Assembly (NCBI GenBank): GCA_018971305.1
Contig: JAGXBC010000006.1
Location: 1 to 39,849 of the forward strand
DNA: 39,849 nt
Source of the DNA: Patescibacteria group bacterium
GTDB lineage: Bacteria > Patescibacteriota > Minisyncoccia > UBA6257 > 2-01-FULL-56-20
Direction: 5' to 3'
The notes under the pieces were generated by a model. It worked only from the letters and a program-made list of their open reading frames with translations, ran no database searches and was not told the DNA's origin. Position 1 is the first letter of the stretch; every line of letters starts with the position of its first letter. The position numbers and the translations under genes are program-made. Below are positions 1-38,422 of this stretch, one piece after another.

Positions 1-149
1 AGTCACGATTATCCGCTTGACCTGCGAGAGAAAATGCCCATCCACCCTCATGCCGGTCACTTTCATTTTAATGAGCCGATCCCGCAATTCATCATTGACG
101 ACCGACTGTGCAGCGGCGATTTCGTCCTTTTCCGACTTTAACTGCATCG
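1..149. repeat. Terminal direct repeat, identical to 39701-39849
   Basis: Exact match of agtcacgattatccgcttgacctgcgagag...cgactttaactgcatcg at both ends. Confidence 0.98.
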
Positions 150-3878: not shown

Positions 3879-4287
3879 ACGATTTGAATACTATGTGCGC
3901 GACGTCCTTAGAGCCTATGGCTACAAAGCGGAACGTACTCCGCTATCCGGCGCGCTTGATGGGTGGGCTGGCGATATCACCAGCCGTAGCTTCCCATTCT
4001 TCATTGAATGTAAAAACACGGAAAAAACACAATTCATGGAATGGTACAAAAAAGCGCAGGATGAATCGACGCCGCGCCGACCCGTCATCATTTGGACACG
4101 TAATGGCGAAACCGCCTATGTATTTTTACAACTCACCGATTTCCTCGACCAAATCACGGCGAAACCACCGGCGCAGCCAATCCCTAAAAAGGTACTACAG
4201 AAGAAAAAAACGGCACCAGAGGACGTAGCATGGCAAGGGTCATTATCTAAGTTTAGAATGTCGCACCGAAATAAATATAGTACTTGA
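3847..4287 (+). CDS. Holliday-junction-resolvase-like PD-(D/E)XK nuclease
   Basis: GKRFEYYVRDVLRAYGYKAERTPLSGALDGWAGDITSRSFPFFIECKNTEK; E...D...ExK arrangement. Confidence 0.6.
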   Translation: MSLKNPQAKGKRFEYYVRDVLRAYGYKAERTPLSGALDGWAGDITSRSFPFFIECKNTEKTQFMEWYKKAQDESTPRRPVIIWTRNGETAYVFLQLTDFLDQITAKPPAQPIPKKVLQKKKTAPEDVAWQGSLSKFRMSHRNKYST

Positions 4288-4312
4288 CAATACCTATTAT
4301 ATGAATTACAAT
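4284..4312 (+). promoter_or_regulatory. Sigma70-like promoter TTGACA-17-TACAAT with inverted repeat AATACCTATT/AATAGGTATT
   Basis: -35 at 4284-4289, -10 at 4307-4312; arms at 4289-4298 and 4310-4319. Confidence 0.75.
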
Positions 4313-4927: not shown

Positions 4928-5206
4928 ATGAAATTTTATCCGGCACAAGGTGTTTACATAGCAGAGCTTCTCGAAGATAAAGAAAAAATATTTGTCGACA
5001 CGCGGAAAACCCGTCTCATAAAAGGAAAAGTGGTCGCCATCAACCCTGTAGAAGTGACAGACTTTGGTATAGAAATCAAAACCCCTATTCGTGTCGGTGA
5101 CGTTGTATATTTTCTTAGCTACGAGGGAGACTACGATAATGCAAAAATAGACGGGAAAACATATTACGCAGTACTAAGAAAAGATCATCGATTCGTACTC
5201 AAATGA
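4928..5206 (+). CDS. groES: GroES-like co-chaperonin
   Basis: 92 aa; GKVVAINPVEV...IRVGDVVYFLSYEGDYDNAKIDGKTYYAVLRKDHRFVLK matches the Cpn10 pattern; directly upstream of groEL. Confidence 0.8.
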   Translation: MKFYPAQGVYIAELLEDKEKIFVDTRKTRLIKGKVVAINPVEVTDFGIEIKTPIRVGDVVYFLSYEGDYDNAKIDGKTYYAVLRKDHRFVLK

Positions 5207-6780
5207 AAAAAACAGAAATACTACATGGGCAGAAAGCGCGTGCAAAAATACTTGCTGGCGTCAATAAGATGGCCGATACGGTCACAATCACGTTAGGATT
5301 AAAAGGCCGAAACGTGGCAATCGCTATGCAGGACTTCCAGGGCAACATATACAAACGAGACAATATCCACGATGGTGTACGAGTAAGTAAAGCCATAGAC
5401 CTGCCGGACGAATTTGAGAACATGGGGGCGGCCATTATGCGTGAGGCTGCCGAGAAAACGGTCATGGAGGTCGGTGATGGCACAACGGTAACGATTCTCC
5501 TTAGCCAGGCACTTTATCAAGAGGCAAATAAAGCAATAGCCACAGGATCAGACCCTGTTGAGATACGGGAAGGATTAGAAAAAGCGGCTGACACGCTTGT
5601 AGGGGCTCTGGGAAAATATGCAATCCCTGTAAAATCGCACGATCAAGCTAAACATATCGCAACCATATCATGTCAGGATCCCCAAATTGGTGAAATGATA
5701 GCGGATACCCTTTATAAAATAGGCGCTGAAGGAGTCGCCACCATAGAGGAATCCAAAAATAATGAAACTACTGTTGACTATCAGACAGGTATGCAGCTTG
5801 AGAAAGGATATTACCATCCATACTTCATTACCGATCAGGAAACAGAATCGGCAGTATTGGAAAATCCTTATATCCTTCTTACTGATAAACACCTTATGAG
5901 CTTGGAGCCTCTCGAGAAGCTCTTGACCGAAGTATACAACCGTCATGCGGCCATCGTATTTGTGTGTGCGTCATTTTCAGGTGTAACGATTCCCCTCTTA
6001 TTGCAAAATAAAATGGGAGGAAAACTCAACTGTCTCGCTATACAAGCTCCCTCCTTTGGAGAAAACCAACAAGCAACCCTTGAGGATATCGCGACTCTTA
6101 CTGGCGGCAAGTTTATTGCAGAGGGTACCGGCATGGACTTAAAAGATATAACTCTCAAAGAATTAGGCCGTGCCGACTATGTGACAGCAAATAAAAACTC
6201 ATCATTGATTGTAGGTGGCAAAGGCAACACAAAAGATATAGAGCTACGGGTAGAAAAAATAAAAAGTCAGATTGAAACACAGGATGATGAGTTCAAAAAA
6301 GAAAAACTCCGTGAGCGATTGGGCAAACTCACGAACGGTATTGCAGTCATACACGTTGGCGGGTACACGGAGATTGAAATGAAAGACCGCAAAGAAAAAA
6401 TTATTGATGCTGTATCAGCTACGCGCGCCGCAATGAAAAAGGGGATAGTGCCAGGTGGAGAAATTATTTATCTCAAGCTCCGCGAAATGCTTGGTAACTC
6501 AATAGCTGAGCGTATTATGTATAAAGTTCTTGAGCGCCCATTTAATAAGCTGGTAGAAAATGCTGGTCTCGACAGCGGACAGATGCGTGAACGTCTACGA
6601 AATGTGACTACAAAAAATGCCGGTGTTGATCTTCGAGATAACAAAATAAAAGACATGGTGAAAGCGGGGATTATTGATCCCCTGTTAGTTGTAGAGAGCG
6701 CATTGTATAATAGCGTTAGTGTAGCAAATGCCTTAATACTCACTGAGGCTATTATCGTGCCAAAAGTTGACAAAAAGTGA
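5203..6780 (+). CDS. groEL: GroEL chaperonin (Cpn60)
   Basis: 525 aa; GLKGRNVAI, DGVRVSKAIDL, ENMGAAIMREAAEKT, VGDGTTVTILLSQAL, DAVSATRAAMKKGIVPGGE, GIIDPLLVVESALYNSVSVANALILTEAII. Confidence 0.97.
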   Translation: MKKTEILHGQKARAKILAGVNKMADTVTITLGLKGRNVAIAMQDFQGNIYKRDNIHDGVRVSKAIDLPDEFENMGAAIMREAAEKTVMEVGDGTTVTILLSQALYQEANKAIATGSDPVEIREGLEKAADTLVGALGKYAIPVKSHDQAKHIATISCQDPQIGEMIADTLYKIGAEGVATIEESKNNETTVDYQTGMQLEKGYYHPYFITDQETESAVLENPYILLTDKHLMSLEPLEKLLTEVYNRHAAIVFVCASFSGVTIPLLLQNKMGGKLNCLAIQAPSFGENQQATLEDIATLTGGKFIAEGTGMDLKDITLKELGRADYVTANKNSSLIVGGKGNTKDIELRVEKIKSQIETQDDEFKKEKLRERLGKLTNGIAVIHVGGYTEIEMKDRKEKIIDAVSATRAAMKKGIVPGGEIIYLKLREMLGNSIAERIMYKVLERPFNKLVENAGLDSGQMRERLRNVTTKNAGVDLRDNKIKDMVKAGIIDPLLVVESALYNSVSVANALILTEAIIVPKVDKK

Positions 6781-8179: not shown

Positions 8180-8596
8180 ATGGCTCACGCAGGAGGAAGA
8201 CCAGTCAAATACAAAACCGTTGAAGAACTCCAAAAAGCTATTGATGAGTATTTTGCATTTTGTGACGCGCGTACTAAAAAGATATGGGATGATGACAAAC
8301 AAAAAGAAATCATGGTTTCTTATCCCGCACCTTATACCATGCACGGACTAGCCAGAGCTATGGGAATTGATCGGGATACACTTATAAATTATTCTCATAA
8401 AGAAGAGTTTTTCGGCGCTATAAAAGCCGCACGGCAAAAAGTAGCTGAAGATGTCGAAACACGACTCATGGATGGCAAGGCACAGGCAGGTGCTATATTC
8501 AACCTAAAAAATAACTTTGGCTGGAAGGATGAGCAAAAGCACGACATTGAAGGAGGATTGGAGGTAGTATTCCGCCGTGGTAAAACGAAAGATTGA
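8180..8596 (+). CDS. terS: Terminase small subunit
   Basis: 138 aa; GGRPVKYKTVEELQKAIDEYF...LARAMGIDRDTLINYS...NFGWKDEQKHD, directly before TerL. Confidence 0.8.
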   Translation: MAHAGGRPVKYKTVEELQKAIDEYFAFCDARTKKIWDDDKQKEIMVSYPAPYTMHGLARAMGIDRDTLINYSHKEEFFGAIKAARQKVAEDVETRLMDGKAQAGAIFNLKNNFGWKDEQKHDIEGGLEVVFRRGKTKD

Positions 8597-9938
8597 AATT
8601 GACACATTTTACCCAAGTGGGCCACACCCAGGTCAACAGAAAGTATTGGAAGCCCTGGATAATGGCGTGCGATTTGTACAACTGCGTGCTGGACGCAAAT
8701 GGCGTAAAACCTCACTTATCATTTCTTGGTTATTCGAAAAGGCATTTGAAACAGGACTCGTCTGTCCGTATATTGCACCAAACCGCGTGCAAGCCAAAAA
8801 CATTGCATGGGATGACCATATCAATAGACTCTTAAACCACTTCACTGCACAAGGGCTTCCCTACAAAGCAAATGAAAGCGAACTATCAATTACATTTCCC
8901 AATGGCGGCAAAGTGCAGCTTCTTGGCGTAGAAAACAAAAACTCTCTTCGTGGTATATCAAACTGGGGGGCAGTGGGCGGTGATGAGTATGACGACTGGG
9001 AAGAAGATATTTACTCTGATATTATCCGGCCCAACCTAATTACCTATCATGCACCAATTATCTTAGGTGGTACGCCCAATGGGTTTCGAAACCTCTACCA
9101 TATTGAAAACATGAAGGATGAGAAAGGCAGTCACATATTCCAATCATTTCACTTTACGACCATGGACAACCCAGACATTCCCAAAGAAGAACTCGCAAGC
9201 CTTATTAGCGAATATAAATCCATGGGCATGGGCTCCTATCGACAGGAAATACTGGCCGAGTACGAAAAGCCCGAGGGCGTGGTATATGACGAGTGGGACA
9301 TGAAGCAATATATACCCTTCTGGTATGACGAAAACCTGCCGCTGCACCTGTCGTGGGACTTCGGGGTAAATGACCCCACGGTCGTCCTGTTTATACAGCC
9401 CAACGGCAGCGAGCTGCGTATAGTGGATTACATCGAGGCGTCCAATGCAAACTTAGAGTACTTTGTCGAGGAGATAGATAAGAAGGGATACAAAAAACCA
9501 TCGTTCGAAGCCGGCGACATTTCGGGCCGGGCGCGGTCGCTCATTACAGGGAAAAGCCCCATATCGCTGCTGCGCGAGCTGGGCCACGATGTACGCAGTA
9601 TGCCTATACCCGATATAGAACAGCAGATACGCAACGCCCATACCTACGTCCCGAACCTGTGGGTATCAAGTGCAAAGGCCGAACGCTTCCGCGACTGCAT
9701 ACTGAACTACCACTACCCGGAGAAGTCGACCACACTGGTAAACCAAGACAACGAACAACCAGTCCACGACGAGTACAGCCATGCCCTCCGGGCGTTCGAG
9801 TACTACTGCTGGAACCTCAAGCACGGGAGAGTGGGGGCTGTGCATGAACGGCTGGCAGATAAGCACTCACCCAGCCCGAGCGCCGAGTTCTTTAGGGGGC
9901 AGCAGGTCGGGCTGGATATAGATAAGTTTAAGCATTGA
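8577..9938 (+). CDS. terL: Terminase large subunit
   Basis: 453 aa; RAGRKWRKTSLI Walker A-like, WGAVGGDEYDDWEEDIY Walker B region, GGTPNG, WDFGVNDPTV nuclease-region motif. Confidence 0.9.
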   Translation: MVKRKIEIDTFYPSGPHPGQQKVLEALDNGVRFVQLRAGRKWRKTSLIISWLFEKAFETGLVCPYIAPNRVQAKNIAWDDHINRLLNHFTAQGLPYKANESELSITFPNGGKVQLLGVENKNSLRGISNWGAVGGDEYDDWEEDIYSDIIRPNLITYHAPIILGGTPNGFRNLYHIENMKDEKGSHIFQSFHFTTMDNPDIPKEELASLISEYKSMGMGSYRQEILAEYEKPEGVVYDEWDMKQYIPFWYDENLPLHLSWDFGVNDPTVVLFIQPNGSELRIVDYIEASNANLEYFVEEIDKKGYKKPSFEAGDISGRARSLITGKSPISLLRELGHDVRSMPIPDIEQQIRNAHTYVPNLWVSSAKAERFRDCILNYHYPEKSTTLVNQDNEQPVHDEYSHALRAFEYYCWNLKHGRVGAVHERLADKHSPSPSAEFFRGQQVGLDIDKFKH

Positions 9939-10011
9939 TCCCGCGTAGCACATTTGGTCGTGCAACGTCCCGTTAAGGCGGAGAACGGAGGTTCGAGTCC
10001 TCCCGCGGGAG
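9939..10011 (+). tRNA. tRNA-Asn-like (anticodon GTT), no encoded CCA
   Basis: Acceptor TCCCGCG/CGCGGGA, D-stem GCAC/GTGC, anticodon loop CCGTTAA, T-arm GGAGG-TTCGAGT-CCTCC; 73 nt. Confidence 0.85.
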
Positions 10012-10039
10012 CACTATAGAGATTGTCTATAATAGAGGT

Positions 10040-10531: not shown

Positions 10532-12592
10532 ATGGCAGAATCAGATTTTCATGTTCCAATGCAAGGCAGCTTCCACGATGCCCACACGCCTCCACTGGTG
10601 GCAGAGGAAGGGCTTGAGTCCGAGCTGCTTGACCCGCTATCGCTGGATATCCCCGATGATGAACTGATCGACATCATAGACACGCGCATACAGGAAACGC
10701 GCAACTTCTATAAAAATACGATGGACTTGTACAACCGCAGGCTGACCAATGAGGTGTACTACTTCGGCAAGCAGATCATCGAAAAGGAAAAGGCGCACCT
10801 CCTGAAAGATTACGAATCACGATATAAAGACAATGCCATTTTCGAGATAGAGGCAACCCTCAAGCCGCTGGCAATGAGCAGGCTTCCTGACTTACTGGTA
10901 ACGCCCGGCAATGACAGCCAAGACGCAAAGCTGATGTCGCAGGAGCTATCCAAGGCCATAGACACACAGGTAAAGAATAGGGAGAACCGGCTGGTGCTGG
11001 GCCTCGCCTTCAAGCACCGTCCTGTGTACTTCGCCGGTGTTATAAAAGCGGTATGGGATCCAGAGATTGATGACTACCGCTTCCTCTGTATACACCCCGA
11101 TATGATTGACGTCGACTGCTATGCCCCCACCAACAATGCGGACGACATGGAGATCGTGAGCCAGATTATCCCCATCACTATAAAGGAAGTCTTCATGCGC
11201 TTCCCCAAGGCGAAGGATAAGTTCATCGCGGAGCTGCAGACCAAGGGAATAAACATCAACCCCGATAAGCCGTGGGAGAACGAAGCTACTAAGATAAAGA
11301 TACGCGAAACGTGGTTTACATGGTACAAAAAGGCAAAGGAAAAAGACGAGTACGAACGGGTCGAGGGCGTCATGTGGAAATACGAAAAGTGTCTGCTCAA
11401 AAAGATGAAAAACCCCAACTTCGACTACGAAGGGGAGGACAGATACTTTACCTATGTCGAGGGGAAGAAGCAGGAGCTGACCGTCGATCAGGAGATGCAG
11501 ATTATCGCGCTAGGCGTTATGCCGCCCGATGTACAGACGGAGAAGGTATACCACAATTACTTCCGCAGGCCGCGCAAACCCTTCTACTTCATGGGATACG
11601 ACCAGTGGGGAAAGCAGCCGCTGGATGAAACGAGCGAGCTGGAGCAGAACATACACCTTGAGCGCGCACTGGATAAGCGGGGCAAGCAGATAGAGGAAAC
11701 ACTGGATAACCGCGGGCACCACGTCTGGAGCAAGGAGTCAGGTCTAAAAAGTGGCGATGTGCAGGGCATGGATATGAACGACCCCGATGTCGATGTCATC
11801 GTGGACGGCGATGTCAATAAGGTACATAAGTATATAGAGCCGGCCCGCCCGACCCCCGATGAGTTTTCGGATATGGAATCAATCCGCAACCGTATGTATG
11901 GCATAGCAGGGGCCAATGCGGTACGCGGACAGATACAGACGCAGGTCGCCACCACCAACCAAATCGCACGCGAGGCAGACTTCACCCGTGCCGATGATCT
12001 GGTAGAGGACACCATCAATGGTGCCGCAGAGTGGATGGGGGATTGGGCGCTGCAGTTTATAAAGCTGCGCTACACCAAAGACCACTTCCGTGAAATCCTC
12101 GGCGTAGCCGGGGATATCGTCTATGTGAAGCTCAACCGCAATATGGTACGCGATGGCATGATTATAAAGATTAAAGCATCGGGAACGGATAAACTGAAAG
12201 CCCAGAACAACGCAATAGATATGGCGAAGCTCAAGATGATTGACCCCGTGCAGTTCTTCAGGGATATGGGACTTCCCGACCCCGAGGGACGCGCAAAGCA
12301 GCTGATGATGTGGATGAGCGACCCCAATACCTACATGATGCAATACGTGCTGGGTCTGGAAACCTCAGAGGATATGGCAAATAAGCTGATACAGGATAGC
12401 GCAACAGGAGGCGCCGGAGCGCCACCCGCACCACCGGCCCCACCCGCACCTGCACCTATGGCGCCCCCAGCACCACCGGCACCAAGCCCCGGACTAATGG
12501 GTGCGCCCGTAGCACCAACGCCAACCAATACGGCAGCCGTACCCGCTATGCCCCCGGCAGGTGCGCCGGTAGGAAGTCCACGGGGACTATGA
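10532..12592 (+). CDS. Portal protein
   Basis: 686 aa between TerL and scaffold/capsid genes; Pro/Ala-rich C-terminal tail. Confidence 0.75.
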   Translation: MAESDFHVPMQGSFHDAHTPPLVAEEGLESELLDPLSLDIPDDELIDIIDTRIQETRNFYKNTMDLYNRRLTNEVYYFGKQIIEKEKAHLLKDYESRYKDNAIFEIEATLKPLAMSRLPDLLVTPGNDSQDAKLMSQELSKAIDTQVKNRENRLVLGLAFKHRPVYFAGVIKAVWDPEIDDYRFLCIHPDMIDVDCYAPTNNADDMEIVSQIIPITIKEVFMRFPKAKDKFIAELQTKGININPDKPWENEATKIKIRETWFTWYKKAKEKDEYERVEGVMWKYEKCLLKKMKNPNFDYEGEDRYFTYVEGKKQELTVDQEMQIIALGVMPPDVQTEKVYHNYFRRPRKPFYFMGYDQWGKQPLDETSELEQNIHLERALDKRGKQIEETLDNRGHHVWSKESGLKSGDVQGMDMNDPDVDVIVDGDVNKVHKYIEPARPTPDEFSDMESIRNRMYGIAGANAVRGQIQTQVATTNQIAREADFTRADDLVEDTINGAAEWMGDWALQFIKLRYTKDHFREILGVAGDIVYVKLNRNMVRDGMIIKIKASGTDKLKAQNNAIDMAKLKMIDPVQFFRDMGLPDPEGRAKQLMMWMSDPNTYMMQYVLGLETSEDMANKLIQDSATGGAGAPPAPPAPPAPAPMAPPAPPAPSPGLMGAPVAPTPTNTAAVPAMPPAGAPVGSPRGL

Positions 12593-14333: not shown

Positions 14334-15443
14334 ATGGCATACGATGGAATCCAAAATTCAAATCGCGTAACCGGCTTAACTACCCGCGCTCTCTATACGA
14401 AGGTAGTCGACCAAGTTCTTAACTCCGCAACCTACTACTCCCGGCTTGTTTCACAGGGCGAACCCTTTGAAGGCTCAACGATGGACGTTACCTATGATGT
14501 AACGGCAGACAGCGGTGGGCAGTTCTTCACCGGGCTTGAAACGCTCAACAGTTCAGCCGTCAACACGACAGCAACAGCATCATTCGCACACACGGCCTAC
14601 ACACAGCCGGTGGTTAGCATTATGCTTGAGAGCTTTGCAAACGTCGGAAGCCTCGGCATTATCAATCTTGATACCTTCAAATATAACAAAGCAGCGGCCC
14701 AAGCACTGCAACAGCTCGGCAGCTCAATCTATAGCACAGGCTCTGGTAACCAGCCGCTTGGCCTTACCGCCATTGTCGATGACAGCACCAACGTGGCAAC
14801 TATCGGAGGACTGGCACGATCGACCTACACCGTACTCGACTCAACCCTTACCGCATATGCATCAGGTAAACTGACGCTGGCAACGATGGGCACACAATAT
14901 GATAGTGCCATCGCCTCGGGTATGGCAGAGGAAACACCGAATGTCGGCGTTACCACAAAAGGCATTTTCACACTCTATGAGCAGCTCTTAACCCCGAATG
15001 TCCGGGCAACCTACGATGAAGTCGGATATGATCGGGTCTTGGTACGCAGCAAATTCGGCCAGAGGGGCAGCGCAGAACTCAAGAACGCATCAGGCTTTAA
15101 TGCACTGTCCTACCGCGATATGCACATCATGCGTGACGATCAGGCAACAGCACAAATGCTCTGGATGGTCAACGAAGATTACATACACTGGCATGGCCGC
15201 ACAGAGGTGCCGGCAGAGTATGAAGACGTCCTTGAGAAAGTGGATTTTGGCACAAGCGAAGTCTATGAGGGTACAGGTGCAATGGCACTGGATATGCCGT
15301 CCGAGTATAATGGATGGTTCTACCAGAAACCGCTTTTGATCCCGGATCAGGCAGGACGCATTGCAAGGTTTTACGTCATAGGACAAACAATCCCGCTGTC
15401 CTTCCGACGTCACAGCAAGGGTACAGGGATAACAGGAGTTTAA
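14334..15443 (+). CDS. Major capsid protein
   Basis: 369 aa after scaffold; composition and position typical of an HK97-fold MCP. Confidence 0.75.
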   Translation: MAYDGIQNSNRVTGLTTRALYTKVVDQVLNSATYYSRLVSQGEPFEGSTMDVTYDVTADSGGQFFTGLETLNSSAVNTTATASFAHTAYTQPVVSIMLESFANVGSLGIINLDTFKYNKAAAQALQQLGSSIYSTGSGNQPLGLTAIVDDSTNVATIGGLARSTYTVLDSTLTAYASGKLTLATMGTQYDSAIASGMAEETPNVGVTTKGIFTLYEQLLTPNVRATYDEVGYDRVLVRSKFGQRGSAELKNASGFNALSYRDMHIMRDDQATAQMLWMVNEDYIHWHGRTEVPAEYEDVLEKVDFGTSEVYEGTGAMALDMPSEYNGWFYQKPLLIPDQAGRIARFYVIGQTIPLSFRRHSKGTGITGV

Positions 15444-17019: not shown

Positions 17020-17625
17020 ATGTACAATATCATGGTTGGCATGGCTACCGGCGGCACCGTCCGTTCCGAGACGGTCAGCTCGCTCGTTGGGGCATTAGAA
17101 GTTATAAAGGGGAAGGGTGCCGGCGTGGCCCTCTCATTACAGATCGGTGGCTATGTCGCGCATAACAGAAATGAGCTGGTCAAACTGGCACAGGAGAATA
17201 AATCCACCCACATCATGTTCATCGATAATGATATGGTCTTCAAGCCCTCCGCAATCCAACGCCTTTTAGACCACGATAAAGACATCGTGGGGGCAAACTA
17301 TAATGCACGGGGCGTACCGGGGAAACCTGTGATAATGACAATGAAGCTGACCAACCCCGAAACCGATGAAAATAAAGGACAGTATATGCAGGTTAACTTC
17401 CCCCCGCAGCTCTTTAAGTGCTGGTCGCTTGGTACGGGCTTCATGCTGGTAAAGACCAGCGTGTTTGATAAGCTCGCGCGCCCCTATTTCGTTGCGTATG
17501 AGGAGCCAAACGGTGAACACCACACCGAGGACGTCGAGTTCTGTAAAAAGGCCCACGAGGCAGGGTATGATGTATGGTGCAGCCCTACCATAGAGATTAA
17601 ACATATCGGAACGTATGAATACTGA
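17020..17625 (+). CDS. GT-A type glycosyltransferase
   Basis: 201 aa; THIMFIDNDMVFKPSAIQRLL (DxD-like), GTGFMLVKTSVFDKL, HTEDVEFCKKAHEAGYDVWCSP. Confidence 0.75.
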   Translation: MYNIMVGMATGGTVRSETVSSLVGALEVIKGKGAGVALSLQIGGYVAHNRNELVKLAQENKSTHIMFIDNDMVFKPSAIQRLLDHDKDIVGANYNARGVPGKPVIMTMKLTNPETDENKGQYMQVNFPPQLFKCWSLGTGFMLVKTSVFDKLARPYFVAYEEPNGEHHTEDVEFCKKAHEAGYDVWCSPTIEIKHIGTYEY

Positions 17626-18178
17626 GTTCACCCAAGATTGGTTTTCACAAAATATCCCCATATGGCAGGCTATTATTGGCCCCAAAAAGGGAAATGCCAT
17701 AAACGCGCTGGAAATAGGGTGCTTCGAGGGCCGTGCAACCTGCTGGCTTCTGGATAACGTCCTGACCAGCCCTGAGAGCCATATAACCTGCGTGGATACC
17801 TTCCACAGCGATGAGGAACTAAAGGATATAGATTTTGGAAAAGTGAAAGAACGATTTATCCACAATACGTCCCCCTACGGTGGAAAAGTATCACTCGTTG
17901 TTGACACCTCTGAAAACTACCTGCGGCACACTGCACAGCAGTTCAGCCTCATCTATATAGACGGCTCCCACATGGCCCCGGACGTCCTCACTGATGCGGT
18001 ACTGGCACACCGCACACTGGAAAAGGGCGGGATCATGGTTTTCGATGATTACCTCTGGACGGGATTAGGCAAATTGGTACGAAGCCCTAAGATGGGCATA
18101 GACGCCTTTTTAGACTGCTTTGGGCATCTTTATACCCCTCTTTCCATAGGCTATCAGGTAATCATTTGCAAAAAGTGA
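17615..18178 (+). CDS. Class I SAM-dependent methyltransferase
   Basis: 187 aa; ALEIGCFEGRATCWLLDNVL, ITCVDTF, FSLIYIDGSHMAPDVLTDAVLAHRTLEKGGIMVFDDYLW. Confidence 0.8.
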   Translation: MNTEFTQDWFSQNIPIWQAIIGPKKGNAINALEIGCFEGRATCWLLDNVLTSPESHITCVDTFHSDEELKDIDFGKVKERFIHNTSPYGGKVSLVVDTSENYLRHTAQQFSLIYIDGSHMAPDVLTDAVLAHRTLEKGGIMVFDDYLWTGLGKLVRSPKMGIDAFLDCFGHLYTPLSIGYQVIICKK

Positions 18179-30351: not shown

Positions 30352-30888
30352 ATGGACGATATATACTTTCCGGGCATGGAGCAGACACAGCCTGATGCTT
30401 CGGCATCGATGGAGGGTATGTACTTTCCCGGTATGGCCCCCGCACAGGCAGATGAAGGACAACAGGGCTGGAGTGGGTTTGTTGATAAGGCATCACGGAT
30501 ATCCCAACAGCGCGGCTTCCCTACCAATGTATTATTGGGACAGGCAGCGATTGAATCGGGGAGAGGCTCTGCAGCACCGGGCAATAACTATTTTGGTATA
30601 AAGGGAAGCGGAACAGGGGGGTCGAATAATCTGGCTACAAAGGAATATGGGGCAGGTGGCTACTACGGGGAAAACTCGGATTTTGCGGCATATGAGAAGC
30701 CGGAAGATGCGATCAATGCGTACATTGACCTCGTAACAAGCTATCCCGGCGTACCAGAGGCCATAAAATCAGGCGATACGCTGGCAGTATTACAGGCAAT
30801 AAAGAATGCGGGGTATGCGACATCGCCCACATACGTGAACGATGTATCAAATACGCCGGAGTTTAGAGGTCAATATGGATCCAACTAA
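30352..30888 (+). CDS. GH73/FlgJ-like glucosaminidase (virion lysin)
   Basis: FPTNVLLGQAAIESGRGSAAPGNNYFGIKGSG...YSPEDAINAY-like EKPEDAINAYIDLV. Confidence 0.8.
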   Translation: MDDIYFPGMEQTQPDASASMEGMYFPGMAPAQADEGQQGWSGFVDKASRISQQRGFPTNVLLGQAAIESGRGSAAPGNNYFGIKGSGTGGSNNLATKEYGAGGYYGENSDFAAYEKPEDAINAYIDLVTSYPGVPEAIKSGDTLAVLQAIKNAGYATSPTYVNDVSNTPEFRGQYGSN

Positions 30889-33539: not shown

Positions 33540-33885
33540 CGATATGGATAATACTACGTTAAATTATGTAGTGAATGCTCCCTATTTTTGGCTATCAATG
33601 GGCCTCGTAGCCGGTGTATCGGTATTTGTCGGGGCCATTATCTACGATGGCGACCTCAAGACCGCATGGAAGGGTATTATCAGCATACTTACCTATGGAT
33701 TTTTTATATTTGAAATCACCTTTACCCGTATCCTTCATTTAGAAAATGGTTTATCGGTGCAAGATCCAACGCGCTATGGGGGACTACTTACTATATTGTT
33801 TGTAACAATATTTTGGGTTATTGGTATGCTCTTGGGCGTATTTGCATCAAAGAAAACTCATAAAAGGAGTATAATAAAAGCATGA
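33514..33885 (+). CDS. Multi-TM membrane protein
   Basis: 123 aa with about three hydrophobic segments. Confidence 0.6.
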   Translation: MSVYPDESNDMDNTTLNYVVNAPYFWLSMGLVAGVSVFVGAIIYDGDLKTAWKGIISILTYGFFIFEITFTRILHLENGLSVQDPTRYGGLLTILFVTIFWVIGMLLGVFASKKTHKRSIIKA

Positions 33886-34721
33886 TAGTCGGAAATGACA
33901 TATCAGAATATCAGGGGCAACCCGATTGGCCTACCCTCAAAAATAATGCCAACTTCGTGATTATTAAGGCAGGGGAGGGAGCGACCTACATAGATAAGCA
34001 GTTTGGCTATAACCGGCAAAAGGCCCGCGATGTGAATATCCCCAGAGGCTATTACCACTTTGCACGGCCCGATACAGGTAATACCCCCCAACAGGAAGCA
34101 CAGTTTTTTGTCAATCTTATAAACGGCCAGCCCCTACAGGAAGGGGAATCGCTGTATCTCGATTATGAAGTGCAGTATATCGGGGATAATGTGGGGTGGG
34201 TGCAGGCGTGGCTGGATTTTGTCTATCAAAAATTGGGAGTAAAACCATTCTTTTATTCCTACCAGTCAATGCTTACGAGCCACGATTGGTTACCCATAGT
34301 GAACTCTGGATACCCCCTGTGGGTAGCAGCACCGACAGGCGATCCGAATAATAATATATTCAAAACAGGCGCATGGCCCAAAGCGGCTATGCAGCAATGG
34401 GGAAATGAAACCGTACCAGGGATAACGACAGGAGTGGTAGACGCAGATGTATTTTTCGGTGATACAGCAAAATTCTTATCATATGGTTATCATTCCCCAA
34501 TACAACCAAATCCGCCCTCTAACGGTCAACCTACGCCTCCACAAACCCCTCCTGCGCCCCCGTCGACGCCGAGCACACCGCCGGCGGTTGACTACAAACA
34601 AATAGTGGATTCCATAGAGGTCATAATCAATGACAAATCTCAAATACCGTGGTGGGATTTTATCCTTCACGACAAACGAATTGACGAAATTCAAGGGCTC
34701 ATTGATAAAAGTACTGCTTGA
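33882..34721 (+). CDS. GH25 lysozyme (endolysin)
   Basis: GNDISEYQGQPDWPTLK, FVIIKAGEGATYIDKQF, YYHFARPDTGNTPQQEAQFF, LYLDYE; Pro-rich linker to C-terminal segment. Confidence 0.9.
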   Translation: MIVGNDISEYQGQPDWPTLKNNANFVIIKAGEGATYIDKQFGYNRQKARDVNIPRGYYHFARPDTGNTPQQEAQFFVNLINGQPLQEGESLYLDYEVQYIGDNVGWVQAWLDFVYQKLGVKPFFYSYQSMLTSHDWLPIVNSGYPLWVAAPTGDPNNNIFKTGAWPKAAMQQWGNETVPGITTGVVDADVFFGDTAKFLSYGYHSPIQPNPPSNGQPTPPQTPPAPPSTPSTPPAVDYKQIVDSIEVIINDKSQIPWWDFILHDKRIDEIQGLIDKSTA

Positions 34722-37795: not shown

Positions 37796-38422
37796 TCAAA
37801 ATAAACTTTTCTGATTTCCGATAATTTCTTTTACTTCTAAGGCTTCATTGAGAATATGCAAACCTGTTTCTGGCTCAACACAATTCCTCAGTATTGCCCG
37901 TTTATCAATTCCCGTATATTTATCTAGATTGAATCCTTTTCGTGTTTCCAATACTTTTATGCCTGCCATATGTTTCCGGCTTTTCTTATCAATATCCCGT
38001 ATCAGAAAGTTTGTCCAAAAATAATGTCGGCTGATTTCTCTCGGCTTGATAAGGGGGGGGTACCAGCTTATGACATTCTCAACACAAAACTTTCCCTTAA
38101 AATATCCCTGCAAAAATACAATTTCTTCATAAAGTTTCATATCGGGAAATACAGGTTTATTCTGTTTTCGCTGTTCAACGGCTAATTCTTTTCGGATATG
38201 GCTATGGCTCGGACATGGTGGGCTACTCCATATAAAGTCATACTCCTCAAAATGCGCCAACAGATACGCATGGGCATCTTCAACCAAAACCCTATCCTGG
38301 GGAAAGAAGTCTTGGTAAATCGCAGCAATCTTCGGGTCTATCTCCACAGCCGTAATCTCATGGCTATCCCCCCATAATTTTCTGTTTCCCCCTATTCCGG
38401 CGTATAAGTTAAGTATTCTCAT
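37796..38422 (-). CDS. Compact C5-cytosine DNA methyltransferase-like protein
   Basis: MRILNLYAGIGGNRKLW, AVEIDPKIAAIYQ, WSSPPCPSHS, GKFCVENV. Confidence 0.8.
   Translation of the reverse strand: MRILNLYAGIGGNRKLWGDSHEITAVEIDPKIAAIYQDFFPQDRVLVEDAHAYLLAHFEEYDFIWSSPPCPSHSHIRKELAVEQRKQNKPVFPDMKLYEEIVFLQGYFKGKFCVENVISWYPPLIKPREISRHYFWTNFLIRDIDKKSRKHMAGIKVLETRKGFNLDKYTGIDKRAILRNCVEPETGLHILNEALEVKEIIGNQKSLF

Follow-up and report, generated by a model that had tools for sequence, protein, structure and literature searches.

A putative phage-owned GroES-GroEL chaperonin encoded beside the DNA-packaging and head genes of a small-phage family

A phage genome with groES and groEL ahead of its packaging genes

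The window, by which we mean the whole 39,849-nucleotide stretch analysed here, is an entire contig of a 20-contig, 958,642-base MAG (0.96 Mb). The 149 bases at its two ends are identical, indicating a phage genome of about 39.7 kb that is closed or terminally redundant rather than an integrated stretch. This complete phage genome was binned with the small MAG. Besides packaging and head genes, it encodes tail proteins, two endolysins, a Rad52-type recombinase, an HNH endonuclease and a tRNA-Asn, and no integrase was recognised among the phage proteins scanned. The groES and groEL genes are intact open reading frames on the same strand that meet in an ATGA overlap (Table 1). A sequence-only reading had proposed a phage-borne pair overlapping by 4 nt at this place, and the reading frames, Pfam and PHROGs all agree with it.

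Table 1. Features of the phage genome discussed in the text (window positions)
Feature	Position	Strand	Basis or remark
Direct terminal repeat, 149 bp	1..149 = 39701..39849		copies identical
GroES (Cpn10), 92 aa	4928..5206	+	PF00166, 29.3 bits (cut-off 21.1); phrog_3188 co-chaperonin GroES, E 7e-8
GroES mobile-loop region, residues 19-33	4982..5026	+	5-6 residues shorter than bacterial; alignment and loop-length count
IFV tripeptide of GroES mobile loop	4988-4996	+	alignment
GroEL (Cpn60), 525 aa	5203..6780	+	PF00118, phrog_5725, NCBIfam NF000592; start overlaps GroES stop by 4 nt
Asp57 codon = E. coli D52 (catalytic)	5371..5373	+	alignment, 27/27 lineage members
Asp92 codon = E. coli D87 (Mg/ATP)	5476..5478	+	alignment
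Asp402 codon = E. coli D398 (catalytic)	6406..6408	+	alignment
Lineage deletion, ~14 residues around E. coli E434	6463..6510	+	alignment; GGE for GGG just ahead
Asp492 codon = E. coli D495	6676..6678	+	alignment
Terminase small subunit	8180..8596	+	PF16677, phrog_606; downstream of groESL, same gene run
Terminase large subunit	8577..9938	+	phrog_2, E 3e-23
Portal protein	10532..12592	+	homologous to annotated portal of MW202566
Major head protein (MCP)	14334..15443	+	phrog_9953, E 6e-29; homologues in MW202566 and TM7 phage MG269973

Several other features of the genome are recorded here for their own sake. The tRNA-Asn(gtt) gene (9939-10012) begins one base past the stop codon of the terminase large subunit, within the late gene run. 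Inside the structural module, a glycosyltransferase-like gene overlaps a Methyltransf_24 gene (17020-18178). The two endolysin-type genes lie at 30352-30888 and 33882-34721, the second encoding a GH25 lysozyme (PF01183). At 37796-38422, a C5-cytosine methylase match extends over just the initial quarter of the profile, the gene being truncated, split or frameshifted. Finally, a 31-nt inverted repeat that is 84% complementary (1575-1605 / 4272-4302), with arms 2.7 kb apart, flanks the block before groES.

The host of the phage is probably a member of the Patescibacteria, for which the binning of a free phage contig counts as weak evidence. When tetranucleotide frequencies were correlated with those of the phage, segments of its own MAG ranked first, third and fourth of 19, by a small margin. 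The phage MCP has a relative in the TM7 phage DolZOral124_53_65 (MG269973), for which a Saccharibacteria (TM7) host is recorded. The phage portal was not found in the MAG's relatives, save for one weak match, and a search of 380 further genomes from the phylum did not find it either. Genomes of the MAG and its relatives measure 0.4-1.4 Mb, apart from one contaminated outlier of 2 Mb, and a sample of the phylum looks alike, a size pattern that points to Patescibacteria.

Family membership and sequence signature of the pair

The window GroEL scores 167 bits against PF00118 (cut-off 34.3), 504 bits against NF000592 (cut-off 397) and 420 bits against phrog_5725 (E 2e-125). It stays under the cut-off of the GroEL equivalog TIGR02348 (496 bits against 582), a threshold that marks the housekeeping form of GroEL and not the whole Cpn60 family; the miss therefore points to a divergent subfamily rather than a housekeeping equivalog. 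GroES gives a weak Pfam match that is nevertheless above the cut-off, and it falls below those of the NCBIfam housekeeping GroES models (best 29.6 bits against 120). A tblastn search with the window GroES against phages returned no match because the sequence is too diverged. In more than 20 relatives the genes are conserved as intact open reading frames, with 41-51% identity and the same gene order, which rules out chance.

The residues expected of an ATPase are in place. D52, D87, D398, D495, G88, T89 and G414 (E. coli numbering) are invariant in all 27 GroELs of the lineage, that is, the window and 26 relatives. The sequence-only reading had recognised DGVRVS, GDGTT and DAVSATRAA as three conserved aspartate positions; these motifs are present, correspond to E. 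coli D52, D87 and D398, and have all three aspartates intact, while the conserved positions in fact number four, D495 also being kept. It had likewise noticed GLKGRNV in place of GPKGRNV, and this change (P33 to L) turns out to be peculiar to the window phage, with the proline kept in 23/27 lineage members. The GGM tail at the C terminus, usual in group I chaperonins though not strictly defining, was correctly reported as missing and is absent from the window GroEL and all 27 lineage members.

Several other positions set the lineage apart from bacterial GroEL. Histidine replaces K51 in 22/27 members, aspartate replaces N479 in 25/27 and valine replaces A480 in 23/27 (leucine in the window), and most of the core clade has a glutamate after the glycine pair at 415 (E416, giving GGE for GGG). 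In 22 of the 27, the alignment has a gap at E434, a residue that in E. coli GroEL takes part in the contact between the rings. The title of PDB entry 2yey calls the E434K GroEL mutant allosterically defective. At other inter-ring contact positions, the window GroEL has N452, D461, G463 and Q464, so that R452, S463 and V464 are changed, and K105 is kept. These changes, as read from the alignment, are a hint towards altered ring-ring coupling. Since the GroELs of the host group are variable at the inter-ring contact positions too, we rejected the changes as proof that the ring is single.

The mobile loop of GroES is short, as the sequence-only reading had suggested. Measured between two fixed points, it spans 28 residues in the window GroES and 30.7 on average in the lineage. 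The corresponding figures are 34 for the own host, 33-35 among relatives of the host and 33 for other bacteria. The reading's further suggestion that IFV replaces the IVL tripeptide fits the alignment, which puts IFV exactly at the IVL/IVI place; relatives have the hydrophobic tripeptides FVV, LIL, IVL and ITI there. On the GroEL side, Y199, Y203, F204 and L237 of the GroES/substrate groove are kept, and L259 and V263 are replaced conservatively (I, L). L234E and V264Q are outright changes, with the result that binding of any GroES by the window GroEL is not guaranteed.

Structure predictions with AlphaFold2, made from lineage-only alignments, place both proteins in the expected folds. The GroES model (pLDDT 86, the low-confidence stretch being the mobile loop) has the beta-barrel and a mobile loop with a hydrophobic tripeptide, the loop being shorter than usual for a Cpn10. 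Its nearest PDB entry is the Cpn10 1wnr (TM ~0.7), the Cpn10s of Thermus and Mycobacterium reach TM ~0.7-0.8, and gp31 of T4 (1g31) is a weak structural match. The GroEL model (pLDDT 88.5) has equatorial, intermediate and apical domains and is closer to GroES-bound Cpn60 (4v4o, 8wuc, 8wuw; full-length TM 0.78-0.83) than to apo GroEL (~0.61). Taken together, the phage pair resembles bacterial group I GroEL-GroES (E. coli; Thermus, 4v4o) in fold, tandem groES-groEL order, ATPase aspartates and a predicted conformation like the GroES-bound one. It differs in overall identity (36-42%), in lacking the GGM tail and about 14 residues around E434, in H51, E416, D479 and V/L480, in the shorter GroES mobile loop and in its neighbourhood, a packaging and head module.

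A phage lineage inherited with the packaging and head module

We placed the window GroEL in a maximum-likelihood tree of 69 GroELs whose root is unknown, so that "clade" here means one side of a supported branch. The 27 sequences of the phage lineage lie on one side of a branch with support of 97/91, and a core of 21 that includes the window has 100/100. The GroEL of the own host falls elsewhere, within a clade of 30 host-group sequences (99/99), and the GroELs of Vibrio, Flavobacterium, Bacteroides and huge phages are also outside the lineage. Repeating the tree without two long branches and with the GroEL of the TM7 phage added gave a lineage support of 98/99, and the AU test (p 0.47) did not decide between a place inside and one outside the clade for the TM7 phage sequence.

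These results bear on whether the pair was captured recently from a host groESL and rides along as a passenger or moron, raising the stress tolerance of the host and not serving the virion. The phage genes do keep the host-type groESL order, and hosts of the group carry groESL. However, the MAG's own groES-groEL, which lies on a 226-kb contig and has the GGM tail, encodes a GroEL only 37% identical to that of the phage, and the phage sequences form a deep, separate clade. Their place beside the packaging genes is also fixed in about 24 contigs, and no integrase was recognised in the proteins scanned. We rejected recent capture on the strength of the tree and the identity to the own-host GroEL, and consider it very improbable as an account of the pair. 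A phylogeny against host and other phage copies was the check that the sequence-only reading had asked for, with a recent host copy whose active site is disrupted as the outcome that would count against it; we found a separate phage clade, 37% identity and all four aspartates intact. Judged by tree and identities, the phage groESL is an old, phage-specific lineage and not a host copy.

Relatives were collected by scanning IMG/VR with portal, MCP and GroEL alignments; these scans recovered them, whereas a single-sequence scan of viral contigs had found none. The order groES-groEL-terL-portal-MCP on one strand recurs in about 24 distinct contigs, including the published phage MW202566. Among core-clade contigs found through their portal and having at least 7.5 kb upstream of it, groEL is there in 7/9. 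Over all core rows, groEL is present in 20, absent in 2 and impossible to score in 16 that are too short, a count with a bias towards presence. The core members L015 and L029 have no groESL near the portal, an absence local to that stretch, which implies that phages of the family do not strictly need the pair in that position. No member of the window's own portal subclade is known without groEL.

Consistent with a shared history, GroEL and GroES distances follow those of portal and MCP (Mantel r 0.6-0.8, p < 0.001), and for GroEL against portal and MCP the values are r 0.7-0.8 and p 0.0002. Partial Mantel tests that control for portal or MCP leave no additional signal in common between GroES and GroEL (r -0.06 to 0.07, with and without outliers). 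We conclude that the pair was inherited with the module, and that co-divergence of its two members is not demonstrated; the co-divergence anticipated by the sequence-only reading did not emerge beyond common descent. The partial correlation between GroEL and MCP (r 0.34, p 0.004 over all 18 taxa) is not claimed here, since it weakened to r 0.21 and p 0.08 after removal of L007 and L059. That between GroES and MCP is r ~0.31 with p 0.004-0.02, one among several tests.

Distant portal and MCP relatives are arranged differently. Four of them have a GroES upstream of the portal and no GroEL in the stretch examined (L088:4107-4370, L089:2974-3228, L091:437-682, L094:3316-3570), possibly a gp31-like, lid-only strategy within the same wider phage group. 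Two others have GroELs on long branches, which may be independent acquisitions: L093 (2814-4825), where groEL precedes groES, and L080 (2993-4621), where no GroES was found. The terminase large subunit frames of L114 (12507-15884) and L117 (6495-8744) run to 1125 and 749 aa, compared with ~480 in relatives, and are candidates for inteins or insertions.

Proposed function and comparison with other phage chaperonins

In the textbook cases a phage either borrows GroEL or supplies a lid alone, and the well-studied phage GroELs work lidless. The strategies described include use of host GroESL (lambda), an own lid on host GroEL (T4 gp31, RB49 CocO) and an own GroEL without a lid (EL, OBP, AR9) (PMC9598537, PMC7185714). 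The sequence-only reading's remark that very few phages carry both subunits was overstated: PMC7185714 notes phages with both GroES and GroEL, and Flavobacterium phage immuto has a tandem pair. Phage records with a GroEL match number 245, some of them mislabelled bacterial contigs. Viral GroELs from soil have been detected as transcripts and peptides, which implies that viral chaperonins in such habitats are expressed (PMC8390657). We found no report of chaperonins in phages of Patescibacteria in the literature searched. Phage chaperonin pairs are thus already known, and their family-wide pairing with the head module appears to be undescribed. The new element is a groESL lineage that is old, phage-specific and syntenic and that carries a sequence signature of its own across a small-phage family.

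We propose, with a probability of roughly 0.7, that the two genes encode a working group I chaperonin that belongs to the phage, depends on GroES and has passed vertically, together with the packaging and head module, through a family of ~40-kb phages, probably of Patescibacteria. Its activity and clients we infer, as we do ATP hydrolysis, an exclusive pairing of phage GroES with phage GroEL and the number of rings. In the proposed mechanism, translation of groES and groEL, which lie immediately upstream of the packaging and head genes, would be coupled, and the chaperonin would most likely be made together with the late proteins. ATP-driven cycling would then encapsulate poorly folding virion proteins, with head or tail proteins as candidates, under the phage's own lid, and virion assembly would become independent of host GroESL. 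The sequence-only reading had envisaged a self-contained machine folding the phage's own capsid or tail proteins. That role is plausible for a pair beside packaging and head genes with intact ATPase residues; the reading's argument from co-divergence found no support.

Adjacency to head genes could also come from sharing a late transcription unit, with no specificity for clients. In another reading the pair is a general late-phase chaperone that buffers the proteome load of a small cell with a limiting chaperonin of its own. The presumed host genome is indeed very small, and although the pair co-occurs with morphogenesis genes, the choice of clients is unreadable from sequence. Since inheritance tracks the head and portal module, we regard a purely general role as unlikely. 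Slightly less probable still is that each phage protein works mainly with a host partner, the GroES as a gp31-like lid on host GroEL or the GroEL capped by host GroES. The hydrophobic tripeptide needed for docking on any GroEL is retained, and the four distant relatives with GroES only in the stretch examined would suit such a habit. Nevertheless, the two genes are adjacent in nearly all members, and, compared with the host proteins, changes have occurred in the mobile loop as well as in the apical groove (L234, V264). A lid of the T4 gp31 type for host GroEL, meaning phage GroES without phage GroEL, was set aside since GroEL is present. T4 gp31 and RB49 CocO are otherwise comparable as phage GroES-type lids serving virion assembly, a role that would be shared by the window phage; they differ in using host GroEL, whereas the window phage has its own GroEL and a short mobile loop.

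A lidless, GroES-independent chaperonin like those of phiEL, OBP and AR9 would agree with the phage origin and the changed inter-ring region. All are phage-encoded Cpn60 ATPases, but those of the giant phages function without any co-chaperonin and have diverged much further (PMC7185714, PMC9598537). Here an intact GroES adjoins, and identity to bacterial GroEL is 36-42%, compared with 22% reported for phiEL (PMC7185714); identity to AR9 GroEL is just 20%. We rejected the giant-phage type because of the GroES and the identity to bacterial GroEL, and think it scarcely credible for this pair.

The reading of a GroES-dependent, phage-owned chaperonin can be taken further. In a ~40-kb phage family, a complete two-gene chaperonin with its own sequence signature has been kept beside the packaging genes across diverse members. 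Tentatively, and at odds well short of even, the family's chaperonin might be, or easily become, a single ring that with its short-loop cognate lid makes a closed, host-independent machine dedicated to virion proteins of Patescibacteria phages. If its clients are virion proteins, the family offers a natural test of the limits of group I chaperonin specialisation, and of whether a cognate lid makes inter-ring contacts dispensable. The groESL pair may also serve as a marker in searches for probable phages of Patescibacteria, a group with few well-known phages.

Three phages allow a closer comparison. Immuto shares the tandem groES-groEL arrangement, as do other large phages with groESL, but it is a 160-kb phage whose GroEL lies outside the window clade and whose pair adjoins a DNA polymerase gene, not the terminase. 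Of the annotated phages, MW202566 (Caudoviricetes sp. cthkR962, Manatee Spring; 38,956 bp, circular) matches best. Its groES, groEL, terminase, portal and MCP genes follow one another as they do in the window, with homologous portal and MCP; identities to the window are 40% for GroEL, 25% for portal and 31% for MCP. It differs in a GroES (annotated mhsp60) below the Pfam cut-off and in having no deletion in the E434 region. The TM7 phage MG269973 has a related MCP (31%) and a Cpn60 directly after a Cpn10-like frame, but its pair lies elsewhere, on the strand opposite to the head genes, and its GroEL is very diverged (AGDSTT). Its 100-aa frame at L165:14894-15196, annotated as hypothetical, matched the present GroES family in a profile comparison (E 2e-5, probability 77%) and is probably an unannotated, highly diverged GroES.
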